Positions 23,610-44,939 of a stretch of DNA of 52,156 nt are shown piece after piece. The notes beneath the pieces are model-generated. The model did not search any database, was not told the DNA's origin, and was given only the letters and a program-made list of their open reading frames with translations. Source of the DNA: Flavobacteriales bacterium (lineage in GTDB: Bacteria; Bacteroidota; Bacteroidia; Flavobacteriales_E; Vicingaceae); the NCBI GenBank assembly GCA_905339165.1, contig CAJPFH010000116.1, forward strand, positions 1 to 52,156, in the 5' to 3' direction. A program made the translations under genes and the position numbers. Position 1 is the stretch's first letter. Every line of letters starts with the position of its first letter.

Positions 23610-25442
23610 ATGAAGTATAAAAACCTAGCTCATTGTCTTTCCGATTTAGAAAAAAACGGACACCTTATTCGCGTAAAAGAAGAAGTTTCTCCTTCTCTAG
23701 AAATGGCCTCTATTCATTTACGCGTATTTTCAAAAAAAGGACAGGCCATTCTTTTCGAAAATATTAAAGGATGTAAGTACAAAGCGGTTTCTAATCTTTT
23801 TGGAACAGAAGAAAGGTGCCAATTTATTTTCAGGCACACGTACCAAAAAGTACAGCACGTAATTGAAGTTAAAAACAATCCCATTAAGGCATTAAAATAT
23901 CCGTTCAAAAATTTTTCAGTTTTTCTAAGTTTACTAAAATCGTTGCCCAAAAAAGTTTCTTTTTCTTCTGCCCAATTCGAAGAAATTTCCATTTCCGATT
24001 TACCTCAAATAAAATCTTGGAAACAAGATGGGGGTGCTTTTATTACACTACCTCAAGTATATTCCGAAGATATCGAAAACCCAGGAATTCTTCATTCTAA
24101 TTTAGGAATGTACCGCATACAACTAAGCGGAAATAATTATATTCCCAACAAAGAAATAGGCCTGCATTATCAACTACACCGAGGTATCGGAATACATCAA
24201 CAAAAAGCAAATTCAAAAAACGCACCTCTAAAAGTTAGCATCTTTGTAGGTGGCCCTCCCGCACACACATTGGCGGCCGTAATGCCTCTACCAGAGGGAA
24301 TAAGCGAAATTATGTTTGCCGGCATACTTGCCAATCGCAGATTTCGTTATGCCTTAAAAGATGGATATACCATTTCCTGCGATGCCGATTTTGTAATTAC
24401 AGGAGAAGTTTACCCCAATGAAGTAAAACCAGAGGGACCTTTTGGCGATCATTTGGGCTATTATAGTTTAACCCACAACTTTCCTGTATTACGCGTTTAC
24501 AAAGTATATGCAAAGAAAAATGCCATTTGGCCTTTTACTATAGTTGGAAGACCACCACAGGAAGATACATTTTTCGGAAAACTGATTCATCAACTTACAG
24601 GTCGTGCCATTCAAAAAGAAATTCCTGGATTACACGAAGTGCATGCGGTTGATGCAGCTGGTGTTCATCCGTTACTACTGGTTATTGGAAGCGAAAGATA
24701 CACTCCCTATCTAAAAGAAATAAAACCTGCCGAAATATTAACCATTGCAAACCACATTTTGGGAACAGGCCAACTTTCTTTAGCCAAGTATTTATTTATT
24801 GCCGCAAAAGAAGATAATCCAACATTGAACACAAAAAACATTGAAGCCTTTTTTAAACACATTTTAGAAAGAATAGATTGGAGCGAAGATTTACACTTCC
24901 TTACAAACACCACTATTGATACCTTAGATTACAGCAGCGAAAAGCTAAACCAAGGTTCTAAACTTATATTGGCAGCTGCCGGAAAAGTAAAAAGAACGTT
25001 GGGTTCCGATCTTTCCGTATTCAACACCTTGCCCGCCCTATTTAATCAATGTAAATTGGTTATGCCCGGAGTTGTTGCCATTTCTGCACCTGAGTATACC
25101 CTGCAGACAAATGTGGAAAGCGAAATAAAGGATTTGCTTCAATTTTTAGAAAATGTATCTTGTCTAAATTTCCCTCTGTTGGTTCTCTGCAACGATGCAG
25201 AATTTGTATCCTACTCACTAAACAATTTCTTATGGGTAACTTTTACCAGAAGTAATCCATCACACGATATTTACGGTGTAAAAAGTTTTTATAAAAACAA
25301 ACACTGGGGTTGTCTTGGTAATCTGATTATAGATGCAAGGATTAAACCCCACCATGCCCCCCCTCTTAAATTAGATGAAGAGATTGAAAATAAAACAAGT
25401 CAATTAAGCAAACAAGGAGGCTCACTTTACGGGATTATTTAA
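23610..25442 (+). CDS. UbiD-family decarboxylase (menaquinone-type)
   Basis: This 610-residue protein is a member of the prenylated-FMN-dependent UbiD decarboxylases. Signatures are GILHSNLGMYRIQL, LHYQLHRGIGIHQQKA, VSIFVGGPPAHTLAAVMPLPEG, ITGEVYPNEVKPEGPFGDHLGYYS (active-site acidic cluster, residues 265-284) and FTIVGRPPQEDTFFGKLIHQLTG. The length of about 600 matches the Bacteroidota type usually annotated as menaquinone biosynthesis decarboxylase; E. coli UbiD is about 500. The substrate here is therefore inferred. No ubiX-like flavin prenyltransferase gene is in the window. It converges on the MBOAT gene, with only three bases between the stops. Confidence 0.9.
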   Translation: MKYKNLAHCLSDLEKNGHLIRVKEEVSPSLEMASIHLRVFSKKGQAILFENIKGCKYKAVSNLFGTEERCQFIFRHTYQKVQHVIEVKNNPIKALKYPFKNFSVFLSLLKSLPKKVSFSSAQFEEISISDLPQIKSWKQDGGAFITLPQVYSEDIENPGILHSNLGMYRIQLSGNNYIPNKEIGLHYQLHRGIGIHQQKANSKNAPLKVSIFVGGPPAHTLAAVMPLPEGISEIMFAGILANRRFRYALKDGYTISCDADFVITGEVYPNEVKPEGPFGDHLGYYSLTHNFPVLRVYKVYAKKNAIWPFTIVGRPPQEDTFFGKLIHQLTGRAIQKEIPGLHEVHAVDAAGVHPLLLVIGSERYTPYLKEIKPAEILTIANHILGTGQLSLAKYLFIAAKEDNPTLNTKNIEAFFKHILERIDWSEDLHFLTNTTIDTLDYSSEKLNQGSKLILAAAGKVKRTLGSDLSVFNTLPALFNQCKLVMPGVVAISAPEYTLQTNVESEIKDLLQFLENVSCLNFPLLVLCNDAEFVSYSLNNFLWVTFTRSNPSHDIYGVKSFYKNKHWGCLGNLIIDARIKPHHAPPLKLDEEIENKTSQLSKQGGSLYGII

Positions 25443-25445
25443 TTT

Positions 25446-27149
25446 CTAAAACTGGAAATAAATGAAGGGTTGAATATCGGCTGAAAGAGTTTGAAAAATA
25501 AAAAAGACCGTAATACACATAGCCAATACCTGAACCAGTATATGCTGAGAAGCAAATTTGATTTTAATGTTTTCCTTTAATTTATCCGGAAGCCAATGAA
25601 CTACAAATCCAATCAACATAGCAAAAAAAACCATCTTATAACTTTCCAATACGGTAAAAATTAGCGAGGCCTTAAAATTTCCACTTATTTGTTGTAGAAT
25701 TTGCTGAGTGGTTTCCATGGTTTCGGCTCTAAACCAAATTCGCGTAAAAGTGATAAACGTGAACGTAATTAAAATTTTCCAGGTGTTTACCGCCCAGTGG
25801 TTCACTTTCTCGTACGGGCTAATTTTTTTCCATGCTTTATTTGCAATTAGCCCTAATCCATTTAATCCGCCCCAAATAACAAACTGCCAGCTGGCACCAT
25901 GCCACAAACCACCCAGCAACATGGTAATCATTAAATTAATATTCGTATTAATTTGTTTTCTGGTATTGGCCGAAAACAGAGCGATTGCAATCATAAGTAT
26001 AGCAATTATAAGTAACAGCACTCCCACCCACCATTTTTTGGCAAGCATAACCACAATAACAGCAATAACAGATATGCATATGTACGAAGCCCAAGAGCCT
26101 TTTTTATTTCCCCCCAGCGGAATATATAAATAATCTTTTAACCAACCGGAAAGAGAGATATGCCAACGTTTCCAAAATTCTCCTACATTTTTTGCTTTAT
26201 AAGGCGAATTAAAATTGGTGGGCAATTCAAAACCAAGCAATAATGCCACTCCTATAGCAATGTCAGTATAACCGGAAAAATCGGTGTAAACCTGAAGTGA
26301 ATATCCAAATAATGCCATCATATTTTCAAAACCGGTATACATGGAAGGATTTTGAAAAATTCGATCAATAAAATTTACGGCAATATAATCTCCTATTACC
26401 ATCTTTTTTATGAGGCCCTTTAAAATCATATAAACTGCAAAACCAAACTGAACTTTTGTTAAGTGATAAGGTTTATATAGTTGCGGAATAAATTCCGAAG
26501 CTCGCACAATGGGCCCTGCCACTAGTTGGGGGAAAAATGAAACATAAAATCCAAAATCTAAAATATTCTTTACAGGTAATATTTTTTCACGGTATACATC
26601 TACACTGTAGCTAATAGTTTGAAATGTAAAAAATGAAATGCCCACCGGAAGTAATATCTGATCTACGGCATAGTGGCTTCCGGTGGCTTCGTTTGCCCAA
26701 TAGGCAAAAACATTAAATATTTTATGGTGCGTTTCAAACATCTCATTGTAGGAGGATGTAAAAAAGTAGGCGTATTTAAAAAAGAATAGTACAAATAAAT
26801 TAATAACCACACTTGTAACTACAAACAACAATTTAATGTTCTTCTTTTTAGAGTAAAAAATAAGTAATCCGAGAAGATAATCTGAAAAAGTAGAAAATAA
26901 TAAAATGGCAATAAACAATCCGCTTGTTTTGTAGTAGAAAAAAAGACTTAGAAGAAACAAATACGTATTTCTAAGAGCTATTTGTTTATATATAACATTG
27001 TAAAGTAAAAGGGATAAGGTAAAAAATACCCAAAAATAAAATCGGGTAAAAATCATAGGGGAGTTCTCGTTATAAACAAGAATATTTTTAATATTTTCTT
27101 CGCTAAAAAACCAGCTACTCCACTGTATTAAAATTTCCCAAATGTGCAT
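25446..27149 (-). CDS. MBOAT-family membrane O-acyltransferase (AlgI/DltB-like)
   Basis: This 567-residue polytopic membrane protein has the hallmarks of AlgI-type MBOATs: PVGISFFTFQTISYSVDVYR, FFPQLVAGPIVRA, DFSGYTDIAIGVALLLGFELP, EFWKRWHISLSGWLKDYLYIPLGGNKKG (His330) and MLLGGLWHGASWQFVIWGG (catalytic His417). Between GGNKKG and MLLGG lies an extra segment of about 50 residues with two hydrophobic helices. Such enzymes carry acyl groups, usually acetyl, across the inner membrane to extracytoplasmic SGNH partners that modify polysaccharide. Its start overlaps the upstream SGNH gene by 35 bases, so they are co-expressed. Confidence 0.93.
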   Translation of the reverse strand: MHIWEILIQWSSWFFSEENIKNILVYNENSPMIFTRFYFWVFFTLSLLLYNVIYKQIALRNTYLFLLSLFFYYKTSGLFIAILLFSTFSDYLLGLLIFYSKKKNIKLLFVVTSVVINLFVLFFFKYAYFFTSSYNEMFETHHKIFNVFAYWANEATGSHYAVDQILLPVGISFFTFQTISYSVDVYREKILPVKNILDFGFYVSFFPQLVAGPIVRASEFIPQLYKPYHLTKVQFGFAVYMILKGLIKKMVIGDYIAVNFIDRIFQNPSMYTGFENMMALFGYSLQVYTDFSGYTDIAIGVALLLGFELPTNFNSPYKAKNVGEFWKRWHISLSGWLKDYLYIPLGGNKKGSWASYICISVIAVIVVMLAKKWWVGVLLLIIAILMIAIALFSANTRKQINTNINLMITMLLGGLWHGASWQFVIWGGLNGLGLIANKAWKKISPYEKVNHWAVNTWKILITFTFITFTRIWFRAETMETTQQILQQISGNFKASLIFTVLESYKMVFFAMLIGFVVHWLPDKLKENIKIKFASQHILVQVLAMCITVFFIFQTLSADIQPFIYFQF

Positions 27150-28359
27150 CGTAAGATTTAATTAATGCATTAAAAAGTAAATCACCCATTAGCTCATAGC
27201 CTTCTTTTGTAAAGTGAACCTTATCTATTTTTGCTAATCCTAGCTTTTGCCAAATTTTAACCGAACCCAGTCCGCCCATAAGCGAAAACATATCCCACAC
27301 CCCCGCATTGTATTTTTTTGCTAACAAAAACATAGTTTGCCTCACCAATTCGGCATTTCTGTTGGGGTATCTTTTTTTATAATAGCTATCATTATTGGTA
27401 GTAAAAAGTATAGCCGTATTAGGTGATGCTAATTTTATGTTGGCCACTAAAGAATCATAATTTTTTTCATAAACTGCAGGATCGAAACCTGGCTCATATG
27501 CATCATTGATACCAATAGACAGTATTACTAAATCGGGTTTTAGAACCGATAAATGTGGAGTAAATAATTCGCAACGCAAATACGAAGGCACACTGGCTCC
27601 GTTCACTCCTATGGCATGAAGAGAAATCCCTGAATCATTATTTTCTAGGGTAATTCCAAACAAGGTAAACGACTTTTGTGAGGTATCTGTTTTTTCAAAT
27701 TTTAGCTGCAGAGAGTCTAATCTTTTAAAAATAATAAATTCGGAGTATCCTAAATCAGGAAACTGTTCAAAAGTAAATAGCGAGTCTGGCAGTTGTAGGC
27801 ACAAATCTAAACGGGTACTATCGAAGGCATGAAAAACCTTTACTCTGTCAAATTCATATAATGGTGTACTTACTCCTCTAAACTTAATTTTAACAGTGCT
27901 TAATGTATCGGCTGTAGTAATCGAAATTCCTGATAGTCCGAGCAAGCAGTTTTTTTTAGTTTCAACATTTCGGCAACTTTCCCAATTACCTGTGTACTCC
28001 GGATAAAAATAGTAGGGATTATTTGTTTTGGCCACTCGAAAAGGAAATATAAATCCACGTCCACCATTAGAACCGGGGAAGTAATTATAAAAATTTGTTC
28101 TAATTCTATCCGACCAAATATCGGCCTGTACATGCGATCCACCAATATGCACAATATTTATTTTTCCTTTTCCATATATAAGCAGTGAATCTATTTTTTT
28201 ATGGAAACCTCTAAATGCAAGTGAGTCACCTGGAAAATATATTTTATTTTCATTATAATTTACGAAAGTTTTATTTTCGGCTGGAAACGGAACATCTTGA
28301 GCCCACAGTAAGCTCTCTGCAAATAAAAAACAAACCAGTATATATGTTTGCATCTTCAT
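27115..28359 (-). CDS. SGNH/GDSL hydrolase-like protein, exported (second of two)
   Basis: This 414-residue protein has a signal peptide (YILVCFLFAESLLWA, then Q). The SGNH blocks are HIGGSHVQADIW (nucleophile Ser75), a central beta-rich insertion of about 150 residues (to residue 245), GVNGASVPSY, ILSIGINDAY (Asn285) and DKVHFTKEGY (Asp379, His382). The triad is thus present. SGNH proteins beside MBOAT proteins transfer or remove O-acetyl groups on polysaccharides (as with AlgJ/AlgX and PatB). It lies directly after the other SGNH gene (stop and start abut) and overlaps the MBOAT gene. Transferase versus esterase cannot be told. Confidence 0.88.
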   Translation of the reverse strand: MKMQTYILVCFLFAESLLWAQDVPFPAENKTFVNYNENKIYFPGDSLAFRGFHKKIDSLLIYGKGKINIVHIGGSHVQADIWSDRIRTNFYNYFPGSNGGRGFIFPFRVAKTNNPYYFYPEYTGNWESCRNVETKKNCLLGLSGISITTADTLSTVKIKFRGVSTPLYEFDRVKVFHAFDSTRLDLCLQLPDSLFTFEQFPDLGYSEFIIFKRLDSLQLKFEKTDTSQKSFTLFGITLENNDSGISLHAIGVNGASVPSYLRCELFTPHLSVLKPDLVILSIGINDAYEPGFDPAVYEKNYDSLVANIKLASPNTAILFTTNNDSYYKKRYPNRNAELVRQTMFLLAKKYNAGVWDMFSLMGGLGSVKIWQKLGLAKIDKVHFTKEGYELMGDLLFNALIKSYDAHLGNFNTVE

Positions 28360-29790
28360 TTATGGAGCATTAGTAGTTTGCTTAAATGTTTCGTAGTCTT
28401 TTAAAAAAGCATCATAAAACATTTCGGAAATTTTTGTAGTGCCGCTAGGCGAAAAGTGAGTGTAATCAGGTGCTGCTAAAGGAGGGGTTGCATCTACCCA
28501 CTTGGGCATAGAATTTTTTCCACCCATTGCTTCGTACATATCCCAGTAAACTCCTCCCGCATTAAAGGTTGCTTTTTTTAATGCATCTCGCACTGTTTCT
28601 AAATGAGGGTAAGTTACGTATTTGTCTTTTTCTTTAACCGACATGTCGCTAGGGCCTATTACTATAAATGCAATACCAGGTATTTGTTTTTTCAAAAAAT
28701 AAAGTTGAGACTCGAACCACTTTCCATAATTCTCAGCTCCGGCTTCATCTTTTATGTACGGCATCACATTTCCTCCATATTGAAGAATTAATAATTTCAC
28801 ATTAAGTTTATCGTACATCGCTTTTAATGTTTTGGGGTTTTGCTTAGAAAAATCAGTGCCGGAAGCCCCTCTCATTCCAACATTATCCATAATTATGCCT
28901 TTATTCCCCTCTAATGATATTCCGTAAATATTAGGGCTGTCTTTTCCGCTAAAATGCAATGTAAGTTGCTCGGGAGTGGAGGCTAATGTAAACTCTATAC
29001 TACTAATATTGTCGATAGGTTGCAACACATGTGTACTCACAGTATTTCCATCGGCACTTATTTCGAGTTTAACAGGTTGTGTATTAAAACCATAAAATAG
29101 TTTTCCCTTCGAATAATTTCGGGCGTTTCCGTATGCCGCTTTTGATTTATGAATAGTTATATCGGCTACCTTAAACAAGGTGTCGAGATTTGTAAGTGGT
29201 TTAAATCTACAAAACGACATAAGTGCTCCGTAGTGATTATGTTTTACAGAAGTATCTTTTTTTCCGAAACCGGGGTAACGCAACCAATTTTCACTATTTT
29301 CTACTTTAACAGCTATGCGGGGTGCTATTTCAATAACGGAAAATAATCCGGCTCCTGTTCCACCAAATTTTTGCTGAAGTTTATTTCTTACAAACGCAGT
29401 GATTCTGTCTCCTTCAATCTGCGAATCGCCATAGTGCATAATTCTAAATGTATTACCACTTGCTGAGGCTTTTTCCATTTCTTTGAAAACGGCATATAGT
29501 ATCTTCTTATTATTTTCAGGATACTGTAAATTTAAATTAGCCTTTTGGATGGAATCTGCAACAAATGCTATTCTTAAAGAATCTGTTTTAGATAAATTCT
29601 TAACAACATTATTCTTTTCAAATTCTGTTTTTCCAGCACTTTCAGAAACCTCCAAAAATTCGGCTAATGAAGGGAATTCCAATTTGAAATGTTTAGTAAA
29701 ACGTATTCCTTCCTTAGGAAAGGAAATAGAAAACAGAAAAAGAAAAAAAGCGGTATAAATAAAAAATAAAAAAGAATGAATGGGTTTCAT
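28360..29790 (-). CDS. SGNH/GDSL hydrolase-like protein, membrane anchored (first of two)
   Basis: The protein is 476 residues from the ATG at 29790; a GTG one codon earlier is possible. The ATG overlaps the upstream TGA by one base (TGATG), a coupling arrangement. Residues 5-25 form one membrane anchor or uncleaved signal. The SGNH blocks are HYGDSQIEGDRI (Ser near 123), MRGASGTDF, ILQYGGNVMPY (Asn near 341) and APDYTHFSPSG (Asp/His near 442-445). A beta-rich domain of about 110 residues separates blocks I and III, as in carbohydrate-active SGNH proteins. It probably acts with the MBOAT protein in O-acylation at the outer face of the membrane. Confidence 0.88.
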   Translation of the reverse strand: MKPIHSFLFFIYTAFFLFLFSISFPKEGIRFTKHFKLEFPSLAEFLEVSESAGKTEFEKNNVVKNLSKTDSLRIAFVADSIQKANLNLQYPENNKKILYAVFKEMEKASASGNTFRIMHYGDSQIEGDRITAFVRNKLQQKFGGTGAGLFSVIEIAPRIAVKVENSENWLRYPGFGKKDTSVKHNHYGALMSFCRFKPLTNLDTLFKVADITIHKSKAAYGNARNYSKGKLFYGFNTQPVKLEISADGNTVSTHVLQPIDNISSIEFTLASTPEQLTLHFSGKDSPNIYGISLEGNKGIIMDNVGMRGASGTDFSKQNPKTLKAMYDKLNVKLLILQYGGNVMPYIKDEAGAENYGKWFESQLYFLKKQIPGIAFIVIGPSDMSVKEKDKYVTYPHLETVRDALKKATFNAGGVYWDMYEAMGGKNSMPKWVDATPPLAAPDYTHFSPSGTTKISEMFYDAFLKDYETFKQTTNAP

Positions 29791-31313
29791 CACTTGCGCT
29801 TAATTTTTAGTTTTTGACCAGGTTGTATATCTTCCGTAATGTTGTTTATTTCCATAATTTTTTCGGCAGAAACTCCAGGATATTTTTTGGCTATATTGAA
29901 TAAATTATCACCGGATTTAACGATATATAGATGCCATTTGCTTTCATCGGGTAATATTTCGATTTCCTCTTCAGATGATGTATTCTTTTCTATTATTTTT
30001 TCTTTCTGATAGATTGACATCTCGTTTACATGCTTATATGTATTGGCTTTCGACTTTGGAACATAAACTACTAAACTTTGACCAACATTAATTCTTGTTC
30101 CACTAATACTATTCCACCGCTGAATATCGCTTACCTTTACGTTGTATAATGTTGCAATATACCCTAAATTATCGCCCGATTTGACTTTATAATACACCTT
30201 TTCATCTGAATTTTCAGAAGCAGAGTTTTTTAAATTCTCGTTTGCAGAATTTAATTTATTGCTATTTTCAACCACAATAGGTATAGGTTTATATAATGTA
30301 GAATCTTGATACACATAAATACTGTCTTTTATAGAATTAAAAAAAGAAATAGTACCTAAAGGAAGGTACAATATATGTTGAGTAGGAATCATATCGGCTC
30401 TATATATTGGATTAAGAAACTGAAGTTTATTTAACGGTATATTCATCTTTATGGCAATGGCTTTTAAAGAGAGGTTTCGTTCTATTACAAGGGAATCTGT
30501 TTTTGCCGGAAATTCAATTTTGATAATTTTAATTTTACATTCTTCTTTATAATTATGCACGTACAATGAAGCCATGAATGCATAGTATGTGTCGCGAGAA
30601 TCTGATGGTAAATATGAGTATATATTTTCAAGATTCATTTTACCACCAGCCCTTCGTATTGCTTTGTTTAAAATAGCGGGGCTGCAAGAGTATGCTGTTA
30701 TGGCCATAGGCCAGTCGTTATATAATTCGTACAAATCTTTTAAATAAGTGGTTGCTGCTTCGCTTGATTTTTTTATATCTTTTCTTTCATCAATTATTGA
30801 AGACACATTTAGTTTATACAATCGTGCCTGAGGATATAAAAGTTGCCATAATCCAACAGAACCGCTTGCAGATACGAATAAGTTATTGTTTGATGAAAGA
30901 ACTGTTGGTAAATACTTCAGTTCAATGGGTAAATTTTTTTTCTTTAAAGTCTTCTCTATCGTTCCCGCGTATTTTTCACTTAACTCAACAATATAACTTG
31001 TCGTTGAATGATTTTCATTAACCAATAAATTAATAAAATATAATACTCGGTCATTAACAATTAGCGGAAACGGAAGGTTTAACTGATTGAGATGATGAAG
31101 GTAGTACGCAGAAGATTTTATGACAACATTTGGATTATAATTCGAGGAAACATTGTTTGATAAATATAGCCAGTTTTTTTTAATGCTATCTAATGACGCA
31201 ATGGTTCTATTATTAAATGTTTCGTTTTTATTATAAGAAATGGAATCTTTTTGAGAGAATAATTTTAAACTCCATAATAAAAGGAGTAAGGTAGAAAAAA
31301 AATTAAATTTCAT
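29790..31313 (-). CDS. LysM protein with a catalytically altered lytic-transglycosylase (MltD-like) domain
   Basis: The protein is 507 residues from Met at 31313, which begins the signal peptide (MKFNFFSTLLLLLWSLKLFS, then Q); the frame itself opens at 31346. Residues about 60-250 follow the MltD-type SLT fold: NLPIELKYLPTV, SASGSVGLWQL, DERKDIKKSSEAATTYLKDLYELYNDWPMAITAY. The usual E-S pair after LP.V is replaced by Leu-Ser (Leu139), and the AYNAGPG motif by AYSCSPA. The catalytic Glu therefore seems lost. A weak LysM-like segment (278-320) and two clear LysM domains (373-419, 460-507; VKSGDNLG, VKSGDNLF) should bind peptidoglycan. It is the first gene of the SGNH-SGNH-MBOAT operon. Confidence 0.85.
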   Translation of the reverse strand: MKFNFFSTLLLLLWSLKLFSQKDSISYNKNETFNNRTIASLDSIKKNWLYLSNNVSSNYNPNVVIKSSAYYLHHLNQLNLPFPLIVNDRVLYFINLLVNENHSTTSYIVELSEKYAGTIEKTLKKKNLPIELKYLPTVLSSNNNLFVSASGSVGLWQLLYPQARLYKLNVSSIIDERKDIKKSSEAATTYLKDLYELYNDWPMAITAYSCSPAILNKAIRRAGGKMNLENIYSYLPSDSRDTYYAFMASLYVHNYKEECKIKIIKIEFPAKTDSLVIERNLSLKAIAIKMNIPLNKLQFLNPIYRADMIPTQHILYLPLGTISFFNSIKDSIYVYQDSTLYKPIPIVVENSNKLNSANENLKNSASENSDEKVYYKVKSGDNLGYIATLYNVKVSDIQRWNSISGTRINVGQSLVVYVPKSKANTYKHVNEMSIYQKEKIIEKNTSSEEEIEILPDESKWHLYIVKSGDNLFNIAKKYPGVSAEKIMEINNITEDIQPGQKLKIKRK

Positions 31314-31367
31314 CGTATTTCCGATTTCATCTTCTTTATTGGTCAATTATTCTCTATGCAGCATGAT

Positions 31368-31416: not shown

Positions 31417-31629
31417 TTATTTTTTCTTAGCAGCTTTCTTTGCAGCAGGTTTAGCGGCTTTTTTAGGAGCAGCTTTCTTTGCAGCAGGTTTTTTTGCAGC
31501 TTTTTTAGGAGCAGCTTTTTTTGCAGCAGGTTTTTTTGCAGCAGGTTTTTTTGCAGCTTTTTTAGGAGCGGCTTTTTTTGCTGCAGGTTTCTTTGCAGCA
31601 GGTTTTTTTGCAGTTGCTTTTTTTGCCAT
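31417..31629 (-). CDS. Histone H1-like Lys/Ala/Pro-rich DNA-binding protein
   Basis: This 70-residue, extremely basic protein starts MAKKATAKKPAAKK and is built almost only of AAKKP, AAKKA and AAPKKAAKK repeats, like the C-terminal tail of histone H1 and bacterial H1-like (Hc1/AlgP-type) proteins. It should bind DNA or other polyanions without sequence specificity. The DNA is correspondingly repetitive (GCAGCTTTTTTAGGAGC-type units). A longer frame over the same bases on the same strand (31347-31655) codes for a Leu/Gln/Lys repeat and is a shadow. Its own -7 box, a leader hairpin and a terminator make it a single-gene unit. Confidence 0.85.
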   Translation of the reverse strand: MAKKATAKKPAAKKPAAKKAAPKKAAKKPAAKKPAAKKAAPKKAAKKPAAKKAAPKKAAKPAAKKAAKKK

Positions 31630-32762: not shown

Positions 32763-34592
32763 ATGAAACTTCCCCTTTACACCTCTTTCTGTACTTTTCT
32801 AATTCTATCTGTAATTTATTCTTGCGGAAACAAAACAGAACAAGAAAATGCAAACCATGCCTTTGAAACAGAAGTTCAACTATTTCTGAACGATTACAAT
32901 GCTGAATTTCAGAAATTGCTTACGACCTCCTCAGAGGCTGAATGGACGCTGAATACAAAAATAATAGAAGGAGATACTATTACTTCCAAAATTTCTGAAG
33001 AGGCCAGCGAAGCGATGAGTAAGTTTACGGGAAGTAAAAAAAATATTGATAAAGCAAAAGAATATCTCCTAAAAAAAGAAAAACTTTCTCCACTACAAGT
33101 TAAGCAACTGGAGGTAATACTCTACATGGCAGGCGGAAGCCCAGAAATTGCTGCAGATATAATTAAAGAGCGTATAAAAGCGAATACAGAGCAAACTAAA
33201 AAATTATATGGCTACACCTACACGTTAAATGGAAAAGAGATTACCACAAACGATATAGATAATATTCTTGCTTCTTCTGCTAACTTAACTGAGCGACTGA
33301 ATGCATGGAATGCCAGCAAAGAAGTAGGAAAAGAATTAAAAAACGGTTTGGAAAAATTACGCACTCTACGAAATAAAAGCGTTCAGCCTCTCGGGTATTC
33401 CGATTACTTTCATTATCAGGTTTCCGAATATGAAATGAATGCCGATGAAATGATGACTACTTGCAAAAATATGATTACAGAATTATGGCCACTCTACCGA
33501 GAACTTCACACTTGGGCAAGATATGAACTGGCAAAAAAATACAACCAAAAAGTACCCGATTATTTGCCCGCACACTGGCTCCCTAACCGATGGGGGCAGG
33601 AATGGGCCGACATGGTGGAAGTAGAAGGTTTTAATGTAGATGAAGCATTAAAAACAAAATCGGAAAAATGGATTGTAGAACAAGCAGAAGATTTTTATGT
33701 GAGTTTGGGGTTTGAAAAATTACCCTCCTCCTTTTACGAAAAATCCAGCTTGTATCCCCTACCACCTAATGCCAATTACAAAAAAAATAACCATGCTTCG
33801 GCATGGCACATGGACAATGATAAAGATGTGCGTTCGCTAATGAGTGTTGAACCAAACACCCGCTGGTGGGGAACTACCCTACACGAATTAGGACATATCT
33901 ACTATTATATATCCTACTCAAACCCAGAGGTTCCTATTATATTAAGAGCGGGTGCCAACAGAGCTTACCACGAAGCCATGGGAAGTTTAATCGGATTAGC
34001 TGCTCTTCAAAAACCCTTTTTGATTGACAGAGGCCTGCTTCCTGCCAATGTAAAAGTTGACAGTATGAAAATTATGCTCAAAGAAGCCTTAGATTTTGTT
34101 GTATTAATTCCGTGGAGTGCAGGAGTAATGACCGAATTTGAATATCATCTCTATTCAAATAATTTGCCTGCCAACGAGTTTAACAAAAAATGGTGGGAAC
34201 TGGTAAAAAAATATCAGGGTATAGTACCTCCCTCCGAAAGAGGCGAAGAATATTGCGATGCTGCTACCAAAACACATATCAACGATGATGCTGCACAATA
34301 TTACGATTATGCCTTGTCTAATATTTTACTATTTCAGTTTCACGTTTATATTTCCAATCACATTCTTAAACAACCTCCATATGCAACCAATTATTACGGC
34401 AACAAAGAAGTTGGAAACTTTTTTAAAAAGATAATGACTCCGGGGGCTACCGTTAACTGGAAAGAACACCTAAAGCAAAATATAGGCTCCGATATGAGTG
34501 CCAAACCTATGGTAGAATACTTTAGTCCGCTTTACAACTGGCTAAAAGAACAAAACAAAAACCGTACACACACGCTACCCGAACAATTGTAA
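32763..34592 (+). CDS. M2-family (ACE-like) zinc metallopeptidase, lipoprotein
   Basis: This 609-residue protein has a lipoprotein signal (Cys near residue 21 in SVIYSC). The zinc site is HELGH (His374, Glu375, His378) with the third ligand Glu404 in YHEAMGSL, 26 residues after the second His. This spacing and the wording GANRAYHEAMG fit peptidase family M2 (angiotensin-converting-enzyme type: HEMGH, GANPGFHEAIG). Upstream context EYEMNADEMMTTCKNM and WWGTTLHELGHIYY supports it. Expected activity is removal of dipeptides from peptide C-termini in the periplasm. The gene stands alone and converges on a hydrolase gene seven bases away. Confidence 0.9.
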   Translation: MKLPLYTSFCTFLILSVIYSCGNKTEQENANHAFETEVQLFLNDYNAEFQKLLTTSSEAEWTLNTKIIEGDTITSKISEEASEAMSKFTGSKKNIDKAKEYLLKKEKLSPLQVKQLEVILYMAGGSPEIAADIIKERIKANTEQTKKLYGYTYTLNGKEITTNDIDNILASSANLTERLNAWNASKEVGKELKNGLEKLRTLRNKSVQPLGYSDYFHYQVSEYEMNADEMMTTCKNMITELWPLYRELHTWARYELAKKYNQKVPDYLPAHWLPNRWGQEWADMVEVEGFNVDEALKTKSEKWIVEQAEDFYVSLGFEKLPSSFYEKSSLYPLPPNANYKKNNHASAWHMDNDKDVRSLMSVEPNTRWWGTTLHELGHIYYYISYSNPEVPIILRAGANRAYHEAMGSLIGLAALQKPFLIDRGLLPANVKVDSMKIMLKEALDFVVLIPWSAGVMTEFEYHLYSNNLPANEFNKKWWELVKKYQGIVPPSERGEEYCDAATKTHINDDAAQYYDYALSNILLFQFHVYISNHILKQPPYATNYYGNKEVGNFFKKIMTPGATVNWKEHLKQNIGSDMSAKPMVEYFSPLYNWLKEQNKNRTHTLPEQL

Positions 34593-41207: not shown

Positions 41208-42443
41208 TTAGTCTGAAACAATAAATTTTCCGGAAGAAACGTATGCATTTGAAGACATAATATTGTAAAAATAATACCCTTCTCTCACTTCGTTATTAAG
41301 AGCAAGAGTTAAGGTTGTATTACCATTTACTATTTGTTGTTGAGTAATAGATAGGGATATTTCTTTACCTTCTAATGAATACGCTAATGCTTTACAATTC
41401 TCTAGATGCCCTTTTACATGAATGGTAAAAATATTATCTTTTGAAACCGGATTAGGATAGCTGTAAGAAGAAACTTTAAATAAGGAATAATCTTCGGTGT
41501 TTAAAACAGGCAGGTATTCATAAAAATCTTCGGTTGGTAAACCATCGTATCCAGTACCCACATAAATGCTGGTCCACGAACCGAAAGCTGCAGCACTAGC
41601 TCTTGCGGAACCTTGAAAATCTAATCGTTTTGTCCACGTATCGTTCGAAATTTTGTATTCCCAAAAATCTTTTTGGTAGGAGAAGGTATTATCGTATCCT
41701 AAACCAACAAAGCCTTGATAGCCCATATTTGCAGCAATGGCTCCGGAACGAGGAGTGCCTCCGAAATTATTTTTTTGTGTCCATGAATCATTTGCCGGAT
41801 TGTACTGCCACCAATCGTTTTTCAAAACTCCATCATCTCCGGTGCCGGCCCAAGCCATTCCTCCCATGGCAATAGCCACCGCTTGTTTTCTGGCAGTTCC
41901 TCCGAAATCATTTTTTTGTGTCCATACATTGGTAAGCGGATTGTATTCCCACATATCTTTCTTTAATCCGGTGGCATCTTGACCTGTGCCCAAATAGCCT
42001 TTTCCGTTAATGGCAAAACCAATTGCCGATCTTCGAGGAGTACCTCCAAAAGATGCTTTTTGTGTCCACACTTTTGTTACGGGGTCGTACTCCCAAAAAT
42101 CATCCATATACAACATATCGCCCTGCCCTGTTCCCACGTATCCTTTATTGTTTATTACAAATGCTACGGAATTGTTTCTGTTTAATCCGGCTCCTGTTTC
42201 GCCTCCTATGCTTTCAATTTTATCCCAATCGTTATTATTGATTTGGTATCTGTAAAAAGTTCTTTTGTAAGTATTATAATCATAGCCGGTTCCTAAATAT
42301 CCTATACCATTGATGAAAAAGGCCACGCATCCGGTTTTGGGGCCACCGTTTACCGTATCTCTTTTTATCCACACGTTGGTTTGAGAGAGTAGCACATTAA
42401 TTCCAAGAAACAAGACAGTTATAAAAGATAGATTTTTTTTCAT
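41208..42443 (-). CDS. Kelch-like six-blade protein with T9SS type A domain (third copy)
   Basis: This 411-residue protein has a signal peptide (MKKNLSFITVLFLGINVLLS, then Q). Six Kelch-like repeats cover residues about 25-310, each with WTQK..FGGT.R..A...I...GY.GTG.D......DFWEY.P..N. Six units imply a closed beta propeller. A linker follows, then a T9SS type A sorting domain (YSYPNPVSKDN, REGYYFYNIMSSN, GKFIVSD). The repeats lack the usual GG doublet and carry GTG in its place. It is the third of three tandem paralogues. Surface binding of glycan or protein is likely but unproven. Confidence 0.9.
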   Translation of the reverse strand: MKKNLSFITVLFLGINVLLSQTNVWIKRDTVNGGPKTGCVAFFINGIGYLGTGYDYNTYKRTFYRYQINNNDWDKIESIGGETGAGLNRNNSVAFVINNKGYVGTGQGDMLYMDDFWEYDPVTKVWTQKASFGGTPRRSAIGFAINGKGYLGTGQDATGLKKDMWEYNPLTNVWTQKNDFGGTARKQAVAIAMGGMAWAGTGDDGVLKNDWWQYNPANDSWTQKNNFGGTPRSGAIAANMGYQGFVGLGYDNTFSYQKDFWEYKISNDTWTKRLDFQGSARASAAAFGSWTSIYVGTGYDGLPTEDFYEYLPVLNTEDYSLFKVSSYSYPNPVSKDNIFTIHVKGHLENCKALAYSLEGKEISLSITQQQIVNGNTTLTLALNNEVREGYYFYNIMSSNAYVSSGKFIVSD

Positions 42444-42456
42444 TTTAAAAACGGGA

Positions 42457-43698
42457 TTAAAGAATGATAATTTTTTTTGTGATTACATCTTTTTGGACGG
42501 TATTTTCTTCGGGTAATAATTTGATAAAGTAAACTCCAGGAGCTAAATTTTCTCTGTTAATTTCCGTATTTCCACCAATGTTTATGGTAGAGTGTACAAC
42601 TTCTCCGTTTGTATTTAATAGTTGGATTGTGTATTTTATTGAATTATTTTTTATTGAAACAGTAAAGTTTTCAGAAGCAGGGTTTGGAAATACTGAAACA
42701 GAAAGTTCCTGATGGTATTCGTTCACATCGTTAGGAGAACCCGGCCAATACTGATAAAAATTTTGTTTGGTTCCTGTTTCGCTTTTTCCTGTTCCCACGT
42801 ATCCGAATTTATCTATTACAAAACTTACAGCTCCCCGCCTACCTCCACCATCATAATTCTTTTTAATAAACCATTTATTTGTTTGGGGATTATATTCGTA
42901 GAAATCATCTTTATATCCTCCGTCAATACCTAAACCTATATATGCTCTTCCGTTTAGTTCAAAGCCTATGCAACCCATTCGGGCAGAGCCCGGAAAGTCT
43001 AGTTTTTTTGTCCATGTGTTGGTTTGGGGGTCGAACTCCCACCAATCGTTTTGATAATTATCTTCGTTTGCCCCAAGACCAATGTATGCTTTGCCGTTTA
43101 TTCCAACGCCTATTAATCCGTACCTTTCCATTTTTATACCCGGAAAAGCACTTACGTAAACCCATTGGTTGATAGCCGGGTTAAAAGACCAAAGTTGATT
43201 TGAATATGTACTTGGTCCGTTTTTACCGCCACAAACGTATGCTAAATTATTTATTACAAATGCCGTAGCATAATAGATACCTGTACCCGAATTACCAGGA
43301 AAATTAGCCTTTTGGAGCCATGTATTGGTTTGCGGATTGTACTCCCACATATCGCTTTGCCTTGTGCCTAAAAATGCATCGGGGTGATTTATTCCCAACC
43401 CTATGTACCCTTTATTGGCAACTGCAAAACCTACGGCATTTCTTCTGGCTACACCGGGGAAGTTTGCTTTTTGTGTCCAAATATCATCGGCAGAATCATA
43501 TTCCCACAAATCTTTATTTAAGATGTTCGAAGAATCTTGTCCGGTACCAATGTATCCTCTATTGCCAATTGCAAAAGCTACTGCTCTTTCTCTTTTTCCT
43601 CCGCCAAAGGGAGTTTTTTTTATCCAGTCGTTATTTTGGGAGTATAAAGAGGTAGCAAAAAATATAAAGAGGTAAGAAATAGATAATTTTTTCATCAT
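42457..43698 (-). CDS. Kelch-like six-blade protein with T9SS type A domain (second copy)
   Basis: The protein is about 413 residues from the Met at 43698 (a Met one codon later is equally possible); the frame opens at 43710, inside the preceding gene. The signal peptide is KKLSISYLFIFFATSLYS, then Q. Six Kelch-like repeats of about 50 residues follow (WIKKTPFGGGKR, WTQKANFPGVAR, WLQKANFPGNSG, WVYVSAFPGIKM, WTKKLDFPGSAR, WFIKKNYDGGGR). The end is a T9SS type A domain (SVFPNPASENF, LAPGVYFIKLLPEEN, KKIIIL). Its start is two bases after the first copy's stop, showing tight coupling. Confidence 0.9.
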   Translation of the reverse strand: MMKKLSISYLFIFFATSLYSQNNDWIKKTPFGGGKRERAVAFAIGNRGYIGTGQDSSNILNKDLWEYDSADDIWTQKANFPGVARRNAVGFAVANKGYIGLGINHPDAFLGTRQSDMWEYNPQTNTWLQKANFPGNSGTGIYYATAFVINNLAYVCGGKNGPSTYSNQLWSFNPAINQWVYVSAFPGIKMERYGLIGVGINGKAYIGLGANEDNYQNDWWEFDPQTNTWTKKLDFPGSARMGCIGFELNGRAYIGLGIDGGYKDDFYEYNPQTNKWFIKKNYDGGGRRGAVSFVIDKFGYVGTGKSETGTKQNFYQYWPGSPNDVNEYHQELSVSVFPNPASENFTVSIKNNSIKYTIQLLNTNGEVVHSTINIGGNTEINRENLAPGVYFIKLLPEENTVQKDVITKKIIIL

Positions 43699-43700
43699 AA

Positions 43701-44939
43701 TTATTCCCAAATTAGTTTGCCTGTTTTTGAGGTATTGTATCTTTTACTATTTAAGCAGTAGAAATACATTCCTGAAGGAAGATAATCTCTGTTAATCGTT
43801 ACCAAATTCGAAGATATTTCATTGATTGTGCGAACCACACTTCCGTTTGAAGAATATATAGTTAAGGAGAAATCGTACTTATATAAATCAGATATATTTC
43901 CTAAATCAAAGGTGGTTTCGGTTGAGGCCGGTAAAGGATAAACTTTAATTTCGTTAAGAGAATTGCTTAATTCATCGGTAGAAAGCAACTCGCTGTACTC
44001 CCAAAAATCGGAAAAGTTGGTTCCATTGGTTCCGGTTCCTGCGTATCCTTTATTTCCAATTACTAGACATGTCAGGTATCTGCGAGGTAAACCACCAAAA
44101 TCGGCAATTTGCACCCAACTATTTGTTAGTGGATTATATTCCCAAAAATCTCCGTAATTGGTACCACTGGAATAATTATCGCCTGTGCCAAGATACCCTT
44201 TTCCGTTTAGGGCAAATCCTGCAGCCTCCATGCGTTGGGCATATCCACCTACATTGGTTTTTTGAGTCCAACTGTTGAGAGCGGGGTCATATTCCCAAAA
44301 ATCGTTTGAAGAGCCAAATCCTGTAATATATCCTGTACCTACATACCCTTTATTTCCTATGGCAAAACCTACGGCCGAAATTCTACCGCCTGTTGGCATA
44401 GGTGCTATGGCTGTCCATTGATTATTAACAGGGTCGTATCTGTAAAAAGCACTTGTGTATCCGCTATTTGTTAAACCGGTTCCTACATATCCGTAATTTC
44501 CAATTACAAAAGCAACGCCTCCCCTCATGGGGCCTCCTAGAAAATTGGCTTTTTTTGTCCAAGTATTAGTTAACTGGTCGTATTCAAAAAACTCTGCGGT
44601 ATTAGCAAATGTACTGTCTCTTCCGGTGCCTACGTAGCCTTTATTTCCAATACTAAAACCTACATTATGGTAACTTTTTCCTCCGGCATAATCTGCTTTT
44701 TGTGTCCATGAGTTAGAGGCAGGGTCGTATTCCCAAATATCTTTAAATAGTACCTGACCTTGGGCATTGTAGTGCCCTGTACCTAGGTATCCTCTATTTC
44801 CTATAGTAAATGCGATGCAACGGTGTCGACCAACTCCTCCAAAGTTGGCTCTTTGCGTCCATCCTAAATTGGCAGAATTTGCGTTGTTACAAAAGAACAA
44901 AGACTCGATGAATACGAGCAGAAAGTATATTTTTTTCAT
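43701..44939 (-). CDS. Kelch-like six-blade protein with T9SS type A domain (first copy)
   Basis: This 412-residue protein is the first gene of the operon. Its signal segment (IYFLLVFIESLFFCNNANS) is followed by six repeats: WTQRANFGGVGR, WTQKADYAGGKS, WTKKANFLGGPM, WTAIAPMPTGGR, WTQKTNVGGYAQ, WVQIADFGGLPR, each ending in a GY.GTG and an F.EYDP motif. The C-terminal domain is T9SS type A (KVYPLPASTETTF, LPSGMYFYCLNS, GKLIWE). A one-mismatch '-7' box (TAACTTGG on the minus strand, plus-strand 44970-44977) lies upstream. SecA (45015) is transcribed toward it, with 75 bases between. Confidence 0.9.
   Translation of the reverse strand: MKKIYFLLVFIESLFFCNNANSANLGWTQRANFGGVGRHRCIAFTIGNRGYLGTGHYNAQGQVLFKDIWEYDPASNSWTQKADYAGGKSYHNVGFSIGNKGYVGTGRDSTFANTAEFFEYDQLTNTWTKKANFLGGPMRGGVAFVIGNYGYVGTGLTNSGYTSAFYRYDPVNNQWTAIAPMPTGGRISAVGFAIGNKGYVGTGYITGFGSSNDFWEYDPALNSWTQKTNVGGYAQRMEAAGFALNGKGYLGTGDNYSSGTNYGDFWEYNPLTNSWVQIADFGGLPRRYLTCLVIGNKGYAGTGTNGTNFSDFWEYSELLSTDELSNSLNEIKVYPLPASTETTFDLGNISDLYKYDFSLTIYSSNGSVVRTINEISSNLVTINRDYLPSGMYFYCLNSKRYNTSKTGKLIWE

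Follow-up and report, generated by a model that had tools for sequence, protein, structure and literature searches.

A four-gene Bacteroidota operon that joins an MBOAT acyltransferase and two Ape1-type SGNH proteins to an MltD-like protein lacking its catalytic glutamate, and its likely role in peptidoglycan O-acetylation

Operon layout

The window analyzed here is the whole 52,156-nucleotide stretch of contig CAJPFH010000116.1 (assembly GCA_905339165.1, positions 1 to 52,156 of the forward strand) from a Flavobacteriales bacterium of the Vicingaceae. Its minus strand carries, between 25446 and 31313, a four-gene operon encoding, in transcription order, a LysM- and SLT-bearing pseudo-lytic transglycosylase (pseudo-LT), two SGNH proteins (SGNH2, then SGNH1) and an MBOAT acyltransferase. 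What is reported below as observed comprises the genes present and their motifs, the predicted folds, the distribution, the loss of the catalytic glutamate and the selection. The junction between the LysM gene and SGNH2 was TGATG, the SGNH2 stop and the SGNH1 start abutted, and SGNH1 and the MBOAT gene overlapped by 35 bases; these coordinates and all junctions agreed with the first-pass annotation, which had described four minus-strand genes that overlap or abut. The arrangement is not due to chance, since it recurred across many Bacteroidota lineages. The features were as follows.

29790 to 31313, minus strand: LysM pseudo-LT, MltD-like, 507 residues from the ATG at 31313
30897 to 30899, minus strand: codon at the position of the SLT catalytic glutamate; CTT, leucine, residue 150 of the 518-residue open reading frame (ORF)
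28360 to 29793, minus strand: SGNH2, Ape1-type SGNH protein, 477 residues
29422 to 29424, minus strand: SGNH2 nucleophile Ser124 (GDSQ), from a 53-sequence alignment, codon checked
27115 to 28359, minus strand: SGNH1, Ape1-type SGNH protein, 414 residues, Pfam GDSL
28135 to 28137, minus strand: SGNH1 nucleophile Ser75 (GGSH), from a 51-sequence alignment, codon checked
25446 to 27149, minus strand: MBOAT (PatA/AlgI/DltB-type), 567 residues, Pfam MBOAT
25449 to 25466, minus strand: FIYFQF, C-terminal acyl-shuttle hexapeptide read from the sequence, with Tyr564 as the predicted acyl carrier

MBOAT and SGNH proteins

The MBOAT matched its Pfam family with an E value of 1.4e-22 and DltB in the PDB (8jem) with an E value of 9.8e-34, and His417 in GGLWHG was invariant in all 14 aligned sequences. 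Among 133 MBOAT ORFs, 3 of which came from duplicate loci, 113 ended in FxYxxF, 14 in PxYxxF and 6 in neither; five of these six ran off the contig end and the other was frame-broken. In PatA, the tyrosine of the FxYxxF motif carries the acetyl group (PMC12148441), and a PatA-type tyrosine shuttle is highly probable for the protein studied here. D-alanylation or an unrelated lipid role for the MBOAT was rejected: the score of 146.2 bits against the DltB equivalog TIGR04091 fell short of the cut-off of 375, and, as in PatA, the MBOAT itself carries the shuttle motif. Longer MBOAT ORFs of 673 to 725 residues with an FIYFQF end were present in loci L144, L235 and L245; the last had an N-terminal extension weakly like DUF5367, below the cut-off.

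SGNH1 matched Pfam Lipase_GDSL_2 (E 1.3e-14), and no Pfam family was matched by SGNH2 at E ≤ 1. Ser124, Asn342, Asp443 and His446 were invariant in the 53-sequence alignment of SGNH2, as were Ser75, Asn285, Asp379 and His382 in the 51-sequence alignment of SGNH1. The top PDB match of both profiles was Neisseria meningitidis Ape1 (4k3u), with E values of 2.5e-34 for SGNH2 and 2.9e-43 for SGNH1, and of 5.9e-31 and 5e-39, respectively, in a second round with larger alignments. AlphaFold2 models with a predicted local distance difference test score (pLDDT) of 90.1 for SGNH2 and 93.0 for SGNH1 were each aligned to 344 of the 350 Ape1 residues of 4k3u, insert included, at VIA Z 39.0 and a root-mean-square deviation of 2.5 for SGNH2 and at VIA Z 39.3 and 2.3 for SGNH1. 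Campylobacter jejuni Ape1 came second at a Z of about 35, and the next family reached 19.3 (SGNH1) or 18.1 (SGNH2). PatB aligned to the SGNH2 model at Z 15.1 (8tlb) and 14.5 (7tlv), tied with generic SGNH folds; its absence from the best 50 structure matches of SGNH1 shows nothing by itself. The two SGNH proteins are closer to Ape1, a de-O-acetylating esterase, than to PatB, a transferase, and with an Ape1-like pair the operon therefore probably removes acetyl groups too. The serine and the block II glycine, the latter assigned by alignment to Ape1 and from known SGNH motifs, were 179 residues apart in SGNH1 (Ser75 to Gly254) and 185 in SGNH2. The SGNH2 model started with a membrane-anchor-like helix (residues 4 to 24) followed by a low-confidence linker (49 to 81), and the N-terminus of SGNH1 looks like a signal peptide. 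A PF13472 search of the window's own genome returned one further SGNH gene (C4:52064, 233-residue frame), in a Pfam census that is incomplete, as SGNH2 itself was missed by it.

Distribution across the Bacteroidota

SGNH2 was found in 30 of 60 relatives, the window's own genome included. MBOAT homologues of at least 256 bits occurred in exactly these 30 and in none of the 30 others (best score 228.9 bits), the cut-off having been picked after the scores were seen and the most distant members lying at 256 to 301 bits. An MltD-like LysM gene adjoined SGNH2 in 23 of the 30. The MBOAT gene of genus g4 sits apart from SGNH2; in three genomes of this genus (L049, L051 and L052), SGNH1 and the MBOAT gene were located elsewhere and the pseudo-LT gene still adjoined SGNH2. 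When genomes were drawn from the whole class, the SGNH2 profile matched (E ≤ 1e-10) in 153 of 296 genomes and 85 of 165 genera, with 7 of the 153 matches weak (1e-33 or worse). Sixty of these 153 loci, hand-picked from the ranking down to an E value of about 1e-100 and lying outside the window's family, were sorted by an automatic rule: SGNH1 and the MBOAT gene adjoined SGNH2 in 44 (three of them fused), SGNH1 alone in 7 and neither in 9. A LysM gene lay no more than two genes from SGNH2 in 14 of the 60, and also in L230, where SGNH2 had been missed by gene calling.

Named records were an uneven sample, the best 80 of 571 confirmed matches; 4 loci duplicating other genomes were omitted from the counts, and 61 of the other 76 had enough flanking DNA. 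All four genes were in order at 30 of these 61 loci, the triad of SGNH2, SGNH1 and MBOAT stood without a LysM gene at 23, and 8 had other arrangements. Titles of the four-gene records included Flavobacteriales, Bacteroidales, Cyclobacteriaceae, Crocinitomicaceae, Maribellus, Draconibacterium and Phaeocystidibacter, among them the cultivable Maribellus luteus, Draconibacterium aestuarii and Phaeocystidibacter luteus, and the closest named record among these best 80 of 571 was a Flavobacteriales metagenome-assembled genome (JABWCF010000016.1; 91% identity in SGNH2). Conservation of the gene order in the Bacteroidota, the check proposed with the first-pass annotation, was found in several families and orders, contrary to the restriction to close relatives that would have refuted that annotation; the four-gene order is widespread, not universal. 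Other conserved neighbors appeared lineage-specific and comprised an HAD phosphatase, a histidine kinase, GldH, PSP1, an aldo-keto reductase, Fic and FKBP. The HAD-type phosphatase, of about 215 residues, lay between SGNH1 and the MBOAT gene in L036, L040, L043 to L048 and L050, as checked with Pfam in L044 and judged by size and position at the other loci.

Loss of the catalytic glutamate in the LysM protein

The pseudo-LT, for which a TTG at 31346 is an alternative start (518-residue ORF), had a signal-peptide-like start, an SLT domain and two LysM stretches. It scored 62.4 bits (E 3.8e-17) against Pfam SLT and 95.8 bits against Pfam LysM; the best NCBIfam match was MltD, at 116.6 bits below the cut-off of 508. 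Alignment with the family placed TVLSSNN of the window at the catalytic site, where an intact paralog of the same genome (G000:C30) had IVESALN. The catalytic glutamate has been replaced by leucine, which bears out the earlier description of the SLT domain as degraded, and the AYN.GPG motif was lost as well.

Among the relatives, the glutamate was lost in 22 of the 23 copies adjacent to SGNH2 (window included) and was kept in all 41 MltD-type copies examined elsewhere (40 plus the second copy of the window's own genome on C30), a count of alignable MltD-type copies with shorter SLT proteins of about 320 residues outside it. Of the 30 relatives without SGNH2, 13 were examined for such copies. 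An intact copy accompanied the dead one in all 22 genomes concerned; that of G029 contained a frame stop. The glutamate was lost in 10 of 15 copies at the class-wide loci; among 42 adjoining copies at named loci it was lost in 22, kept in 19 and unscored in 1. Its place was taken by Leu, Cys, Val, Ala, Ile, Met, Ser or Gln. Cysteine rather than leucine was present in L036, L039 to L044, L046, L049, L051 to L053, L079 and L206.

In a tree of 104 of 117 sequences, built by a quick search with the catalytic columns excluded and with SH-aLRT values as the only support, a single branch (SH-aLRT 99) separated the lost from the intact copies, and one change was needed. The loss may have a single origin; long branches among the copies without glutamate make a false grouping possible. 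The 13 excluded rows were the near-copies L051, L072, L073, L075 and L079, one second intact copy (L188), and seven sequences with a misaligned SLT region, all without the glutamate (L092, L107, L117, L119, L121, L142 and L143); L117 and L121 were weak LysM-only matches away from SGNH2, and L092 was split over two frames. The ratio of nonsynonymous to synonymous substitution rates (dN/dS) of the dead copies, taken over five species pairs in which one genome figured twice, was 0.10 to 0.22 for the whole protein and 0.07 to 0.20 for the SLT region, and the window pseudo-LT compared with that of a same-genus genome gave 0.154. Judged from these ratios, the dead SLT domain is clearly under purifying selection, though less constrained than the live protein.

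Peptidoglycan-related genes in other lineages

LysM was found inside SGNH1 in L063, L239 and L252; L064 and L245 had it C-terminally, in an SGNH1-like protein and in SGNH2, respectively. Each of these matches was above the Pfam cut-off, and the fusion loci span families f17, f37 and f29. The triad directly followed genes for RodA and a PBP2-type transpeptidase in L061 and overlapped a glucosaminidase gene in L060. An MltD-family gene was by far the commonest close upstream neighbor (84 of 169 loci; the next cluster, 14). Many Bacteroidales records had an intact MltD as the adjoining LysM gene, ending a parA-parB-DUF5683 run (by Pfam, in one case); the ParA P-loop motif was present at 12 of 19 named loci with an intact MltD versus none of the 22 with lost glutamate. 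A natural fusion of SGNH1 to the MBOAT was observed in L056, L210, L215 and L242; as all four belong to family f12, these fusions probably represent one event.

Neighboring genes in the window

A UbiD-family gene on the plus strand, with its stop at 25442, converges on the minus-strand MBOAT end at 25446, with three bases between them. Directly upstream of the operon (31417 to 31629, minus strand) lies a gene for a histone H1-like protein of 70 residues, nearly all K, A and P repeats, which gave no Pfam match at the 1e-5 limit. Farther along were a bacterial angiotensin-converting-enzyme-like peptidase (32763 to 34592, plus strand; Peptidase_M2, 334 bits) and three tandem kelch-repeat proteins with Por_Secre_tail (type IX secretion) C-termini (41208 to 44939, minus strand). 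The kelch-repeat genes overlap or sit 13 bases apart, and two of their Por_Secre_tail matches were above the Pfam cut-off and one just below. A promoter and terminator scan gave 23 sites against 29.5 expected and 9 against 4.4 expected, and was not used as evidence.

Proposed mechanism and alternatives

Lysozyme resistance and autolysis are under the control of peptidoglycan O-acetylation, a modification abundant in Bacteroides. The operon is likely, in our judgment, to be a Bacteroidota peptidoglycan O-acetylation and de-O-acetylation system with an added wall-binding pseudo-LT, of the OAP type published in 2005 as the cluster ape1b-ape1c-pat of Bacteroides thetaiotaomicron, B. fragilis and Porphyromonas gingivalis (PMC1199599). 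That peptidoglycan is the target is very probable. The first-pass annotation had suggested docking on peptidoglycan and its acylation by the system; this was well supported by comparison, because of the Ape1 folds, the shuttle motif, the LysM-SGNH fusions and the PBP2/RodA or glucosaminidase neighbors, and needs amending in that the operon probably also deacetylates.

By inference from PatA, the MBOAT would load acetyl from acetyl-CoA onto Tyr564 of FIYFQF at the periplasmic face. One Ape1-fold SGNH protein would then take the acetyl group on its serine and hand it to N-acetylmuramic acid (MurNAc), and the other would remove the acetyl mark. SGNH1 is slightly favored as the transferase because it is fused to the MBOAT in one lineage; SGNH2 is the alternative because of its PatB-like membrane-anchor-like helix and linker. 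By analogy with LtgA-Ape1 of Neisseria, the pseudo-MltD, unable to cleave glycan strands, would bind peptidoglycan through LysM and hold or activate the SGNH enzymes at the wall, SGNH2 first. We put the chance that the pseudo-LT acts as a non-catalytic scaffold or activator at about even. Active lytic transglycosylases cannot cleave O-acetyl-MurNAc strands, and the dead SLT domain could conceivably be a reader of such strands that recruits or gates the Ape1-type esterase/transferase pair; we consider this improbable. If it were true, a wall-cutting enzyme would have been turned into a regulatory subunit of a peptidoglycan acetylation cycle in which neither SGNH component is PatB-like.

Several points weigh against the proposed OAP-type system with its wall-binding pseudo-LT. 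The block II glycine, replaced by Ser or Asn in PatB, was retained in SGNH2 (G309 in 53 of 53 sequences) and in SGNH1 (G254 in the window and in at least 90% of 51 sequences), and the transferase step is putative because neither SGNH protein is PatB-like. The direction of the chemistry, the choice of the transferring SGNH protein, the substrate and the role of the pseudo-LT are inferred. The LysM gene was lacking beside SGNH2 in 7 of the 30 SGNH2-bearing relatives, and the triad occurred without it at 32 of the 60 class loci, indicating that the core function can do without it. The intact paralogues had a dN/dS of 0.04 to 0.11 (three pairs), so that the dead copy is less constrained. Ape1c of the OAP cluster is said to lack the segment after motif I, whereas SGNH1, like SGNH2, has an insert there of about 100 residues, by which its assignment as Ape1c was ruled out; the gene named upstream of the Bacteroides OAP clusters is for cation efflux, not for a lytic transglycosylase (both statements on the clusters from PMC1199599). 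LtgA is an active outer-membrane lipoprotein lytic transglycosylase, whereas the protein here is MltD-like, LysM-bearing, operon-encoded and without its catalytic glutamate, and deletion of ltgA alone left Ape1 function undisturbed in Neisseria (PMC7083599).

A different target is unlikely. The MBOAT and SGNH proteins might O-acylate another polymer (capsule, O-antigen or another surface glycan), the LysM protein being merely co-transcribed: MBOAT-SGNH pairs have alginate, cellulose, secondary wall polymers and teichoic acid among their substrates (PMC12148441), the triad stood without a LysM gene at the 32 class loci already mentioned, and most other scanned neighbors were unrelated to the wall. 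However, no close structural relative other than Ape1 came up for either SGNH protein, LysM was fused into SGNH proteins in three families, the MltD neighbor was recurrent, and peptidoglycan is O-acetylated in two Bacteroides with the published cluster (PMC1199599).

Other roles for the LysM protein were also weighed. A decaying MltD relic without present function would account for the lost glutamate and AYN.GPG motif, the long branches and a freedom to change about twice that of the intact paralogues, but the low dN/dS overall and in the SLT region argues strongly against it; frames were open in the window and in relatives, and the gene was kept beside SGNH2 in several families, so that a relic is very unlikely. 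The protein might instead still be an active lytic transglycosylase or muramidase that uses another residue, as the SLT fold was recognized, one large clade had cysteine at the glutamate position, and an intact MltD occupied the same place in other lineages. The variation of the replacing residue among members suggests no conserved new catalyst, however, and all 22 relatives with a dead copy carry a glutamate-bearing copy elsewhere; we hold continued activity to be very unlikely. The pseudo-LT might also be a brake that occupies lytic transglycosylase sites or binds these enzymes, shielding O-acetylated or nascent strands. O-acetylation itself blocks lytic transglycosylases (PMC7083599, PMC1199599), a dead competitor would act in the same direction, and the intact paralog was present in every one of the 22 relatives; the degraded groove motifs make same-site competition doubtful, and a brake seems to us unlikely.

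Comparison with known systems

Alginate acetylation by AlgI/AlgJ/AlgX also combines one MBOAT with two SGNH proteins and is not known to have a LysM or lytic transglycosylase component; the SGNH proteins of the operon here differ in that both have the Ape1 fold. An ALGX-type SGNH (PF16822) gave no match in the window's own genome, in a search made uninformative by a control that matched 0 of 14 genomes. MltD has the same layout of SLT and LysM domains, and differs from the window protein, in which the catalytic glutamate is replaced.

PatA/PatB of Neisseria and Campylobacter shares with the operon the MBOAT histidine, the C-terminal FxYxxF tyrosine and an SGNH partner (PMC12148441), whereas the SGNH partners here are full-length, Ape1-fold proteins with the block II glycine kept. 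Neither sequence nor fold singles out a transferase partner for the Bacteroidota MBOAT, both candidates being Ape1-like. PMC12148441 leaves open whether nascent or mature wall is the site of the machinery and gives PatB as without wall-binding domains; the present acetylation system does have LysM domains, in linked or fused form. Neither "Bacteroid" nor "LysM" is present in the main text of PMC12148441 or PMC6174289.

LtgA and Ape1 of N. meningitidis form a complex; LtgA stimulates Ape1 toward a substrate not used by LtgA itself, and damaged LtgA leads to hyperacetylated peptidoglycan (PMC7083599). The operon is alike in pairing a protein of a lytic transglycosylase family with an Ape1-type esterase. 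With a lytic transglycosylase that is naturally dead, under selection and encoded beside an Ape1-type gene, structural regulation of O-acetylation by proteins of this family can be cleanly tested against regulation by cutting.

The closest likeness in gene content was to the OAP cluster of the same phylum, in which one MBOAT gene comes after two Ape1-type SGNH genes (PMC1199599). The operon shared with it a Pat/AlgI-type MBOAT with the histidine and FxYxxF, Ape1-type SGNH proteins and the order ape-ape-pat. The available part of PMC1199599 names no LysM or lytic transglycosylase gene in these clusters, and the likeness was drawn by composition and order, not by sequence. Peptidoglycan O-acetylation was 27.0% and 69.4% in the two Bacteroides species of this cluster (PMC1199599), and MurNAc O-acetylation was 56 to 66% in B. 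fragilis, B. ovatus and B. thetaiotaomicron (PMC11382707). The text of PMC11382707 attributes the Bacteroidota to OatA/OatB-type enzymes; an AT3 (OatA-type) search gave no match in the window's own genome, with a positive control in 10 of 14 genomes. A search of the open-access literature, with subscription papers and preprints outside it, found no description of a role for the fourth gene, that of the pseudo-LT. The first-pass annotation had known of no described system with this exact gene set, which stands for the LysM/pseudo-LT gene in the literature searched and falls for the MBOAT with two Ape1-type genes, already published (PMC1199599). Compared with these systems, the MBOAT and its two Ape1-type SGNH genes are largely known, and the pseudo-LT and its coupling to the Ape1-type genes are the new part.

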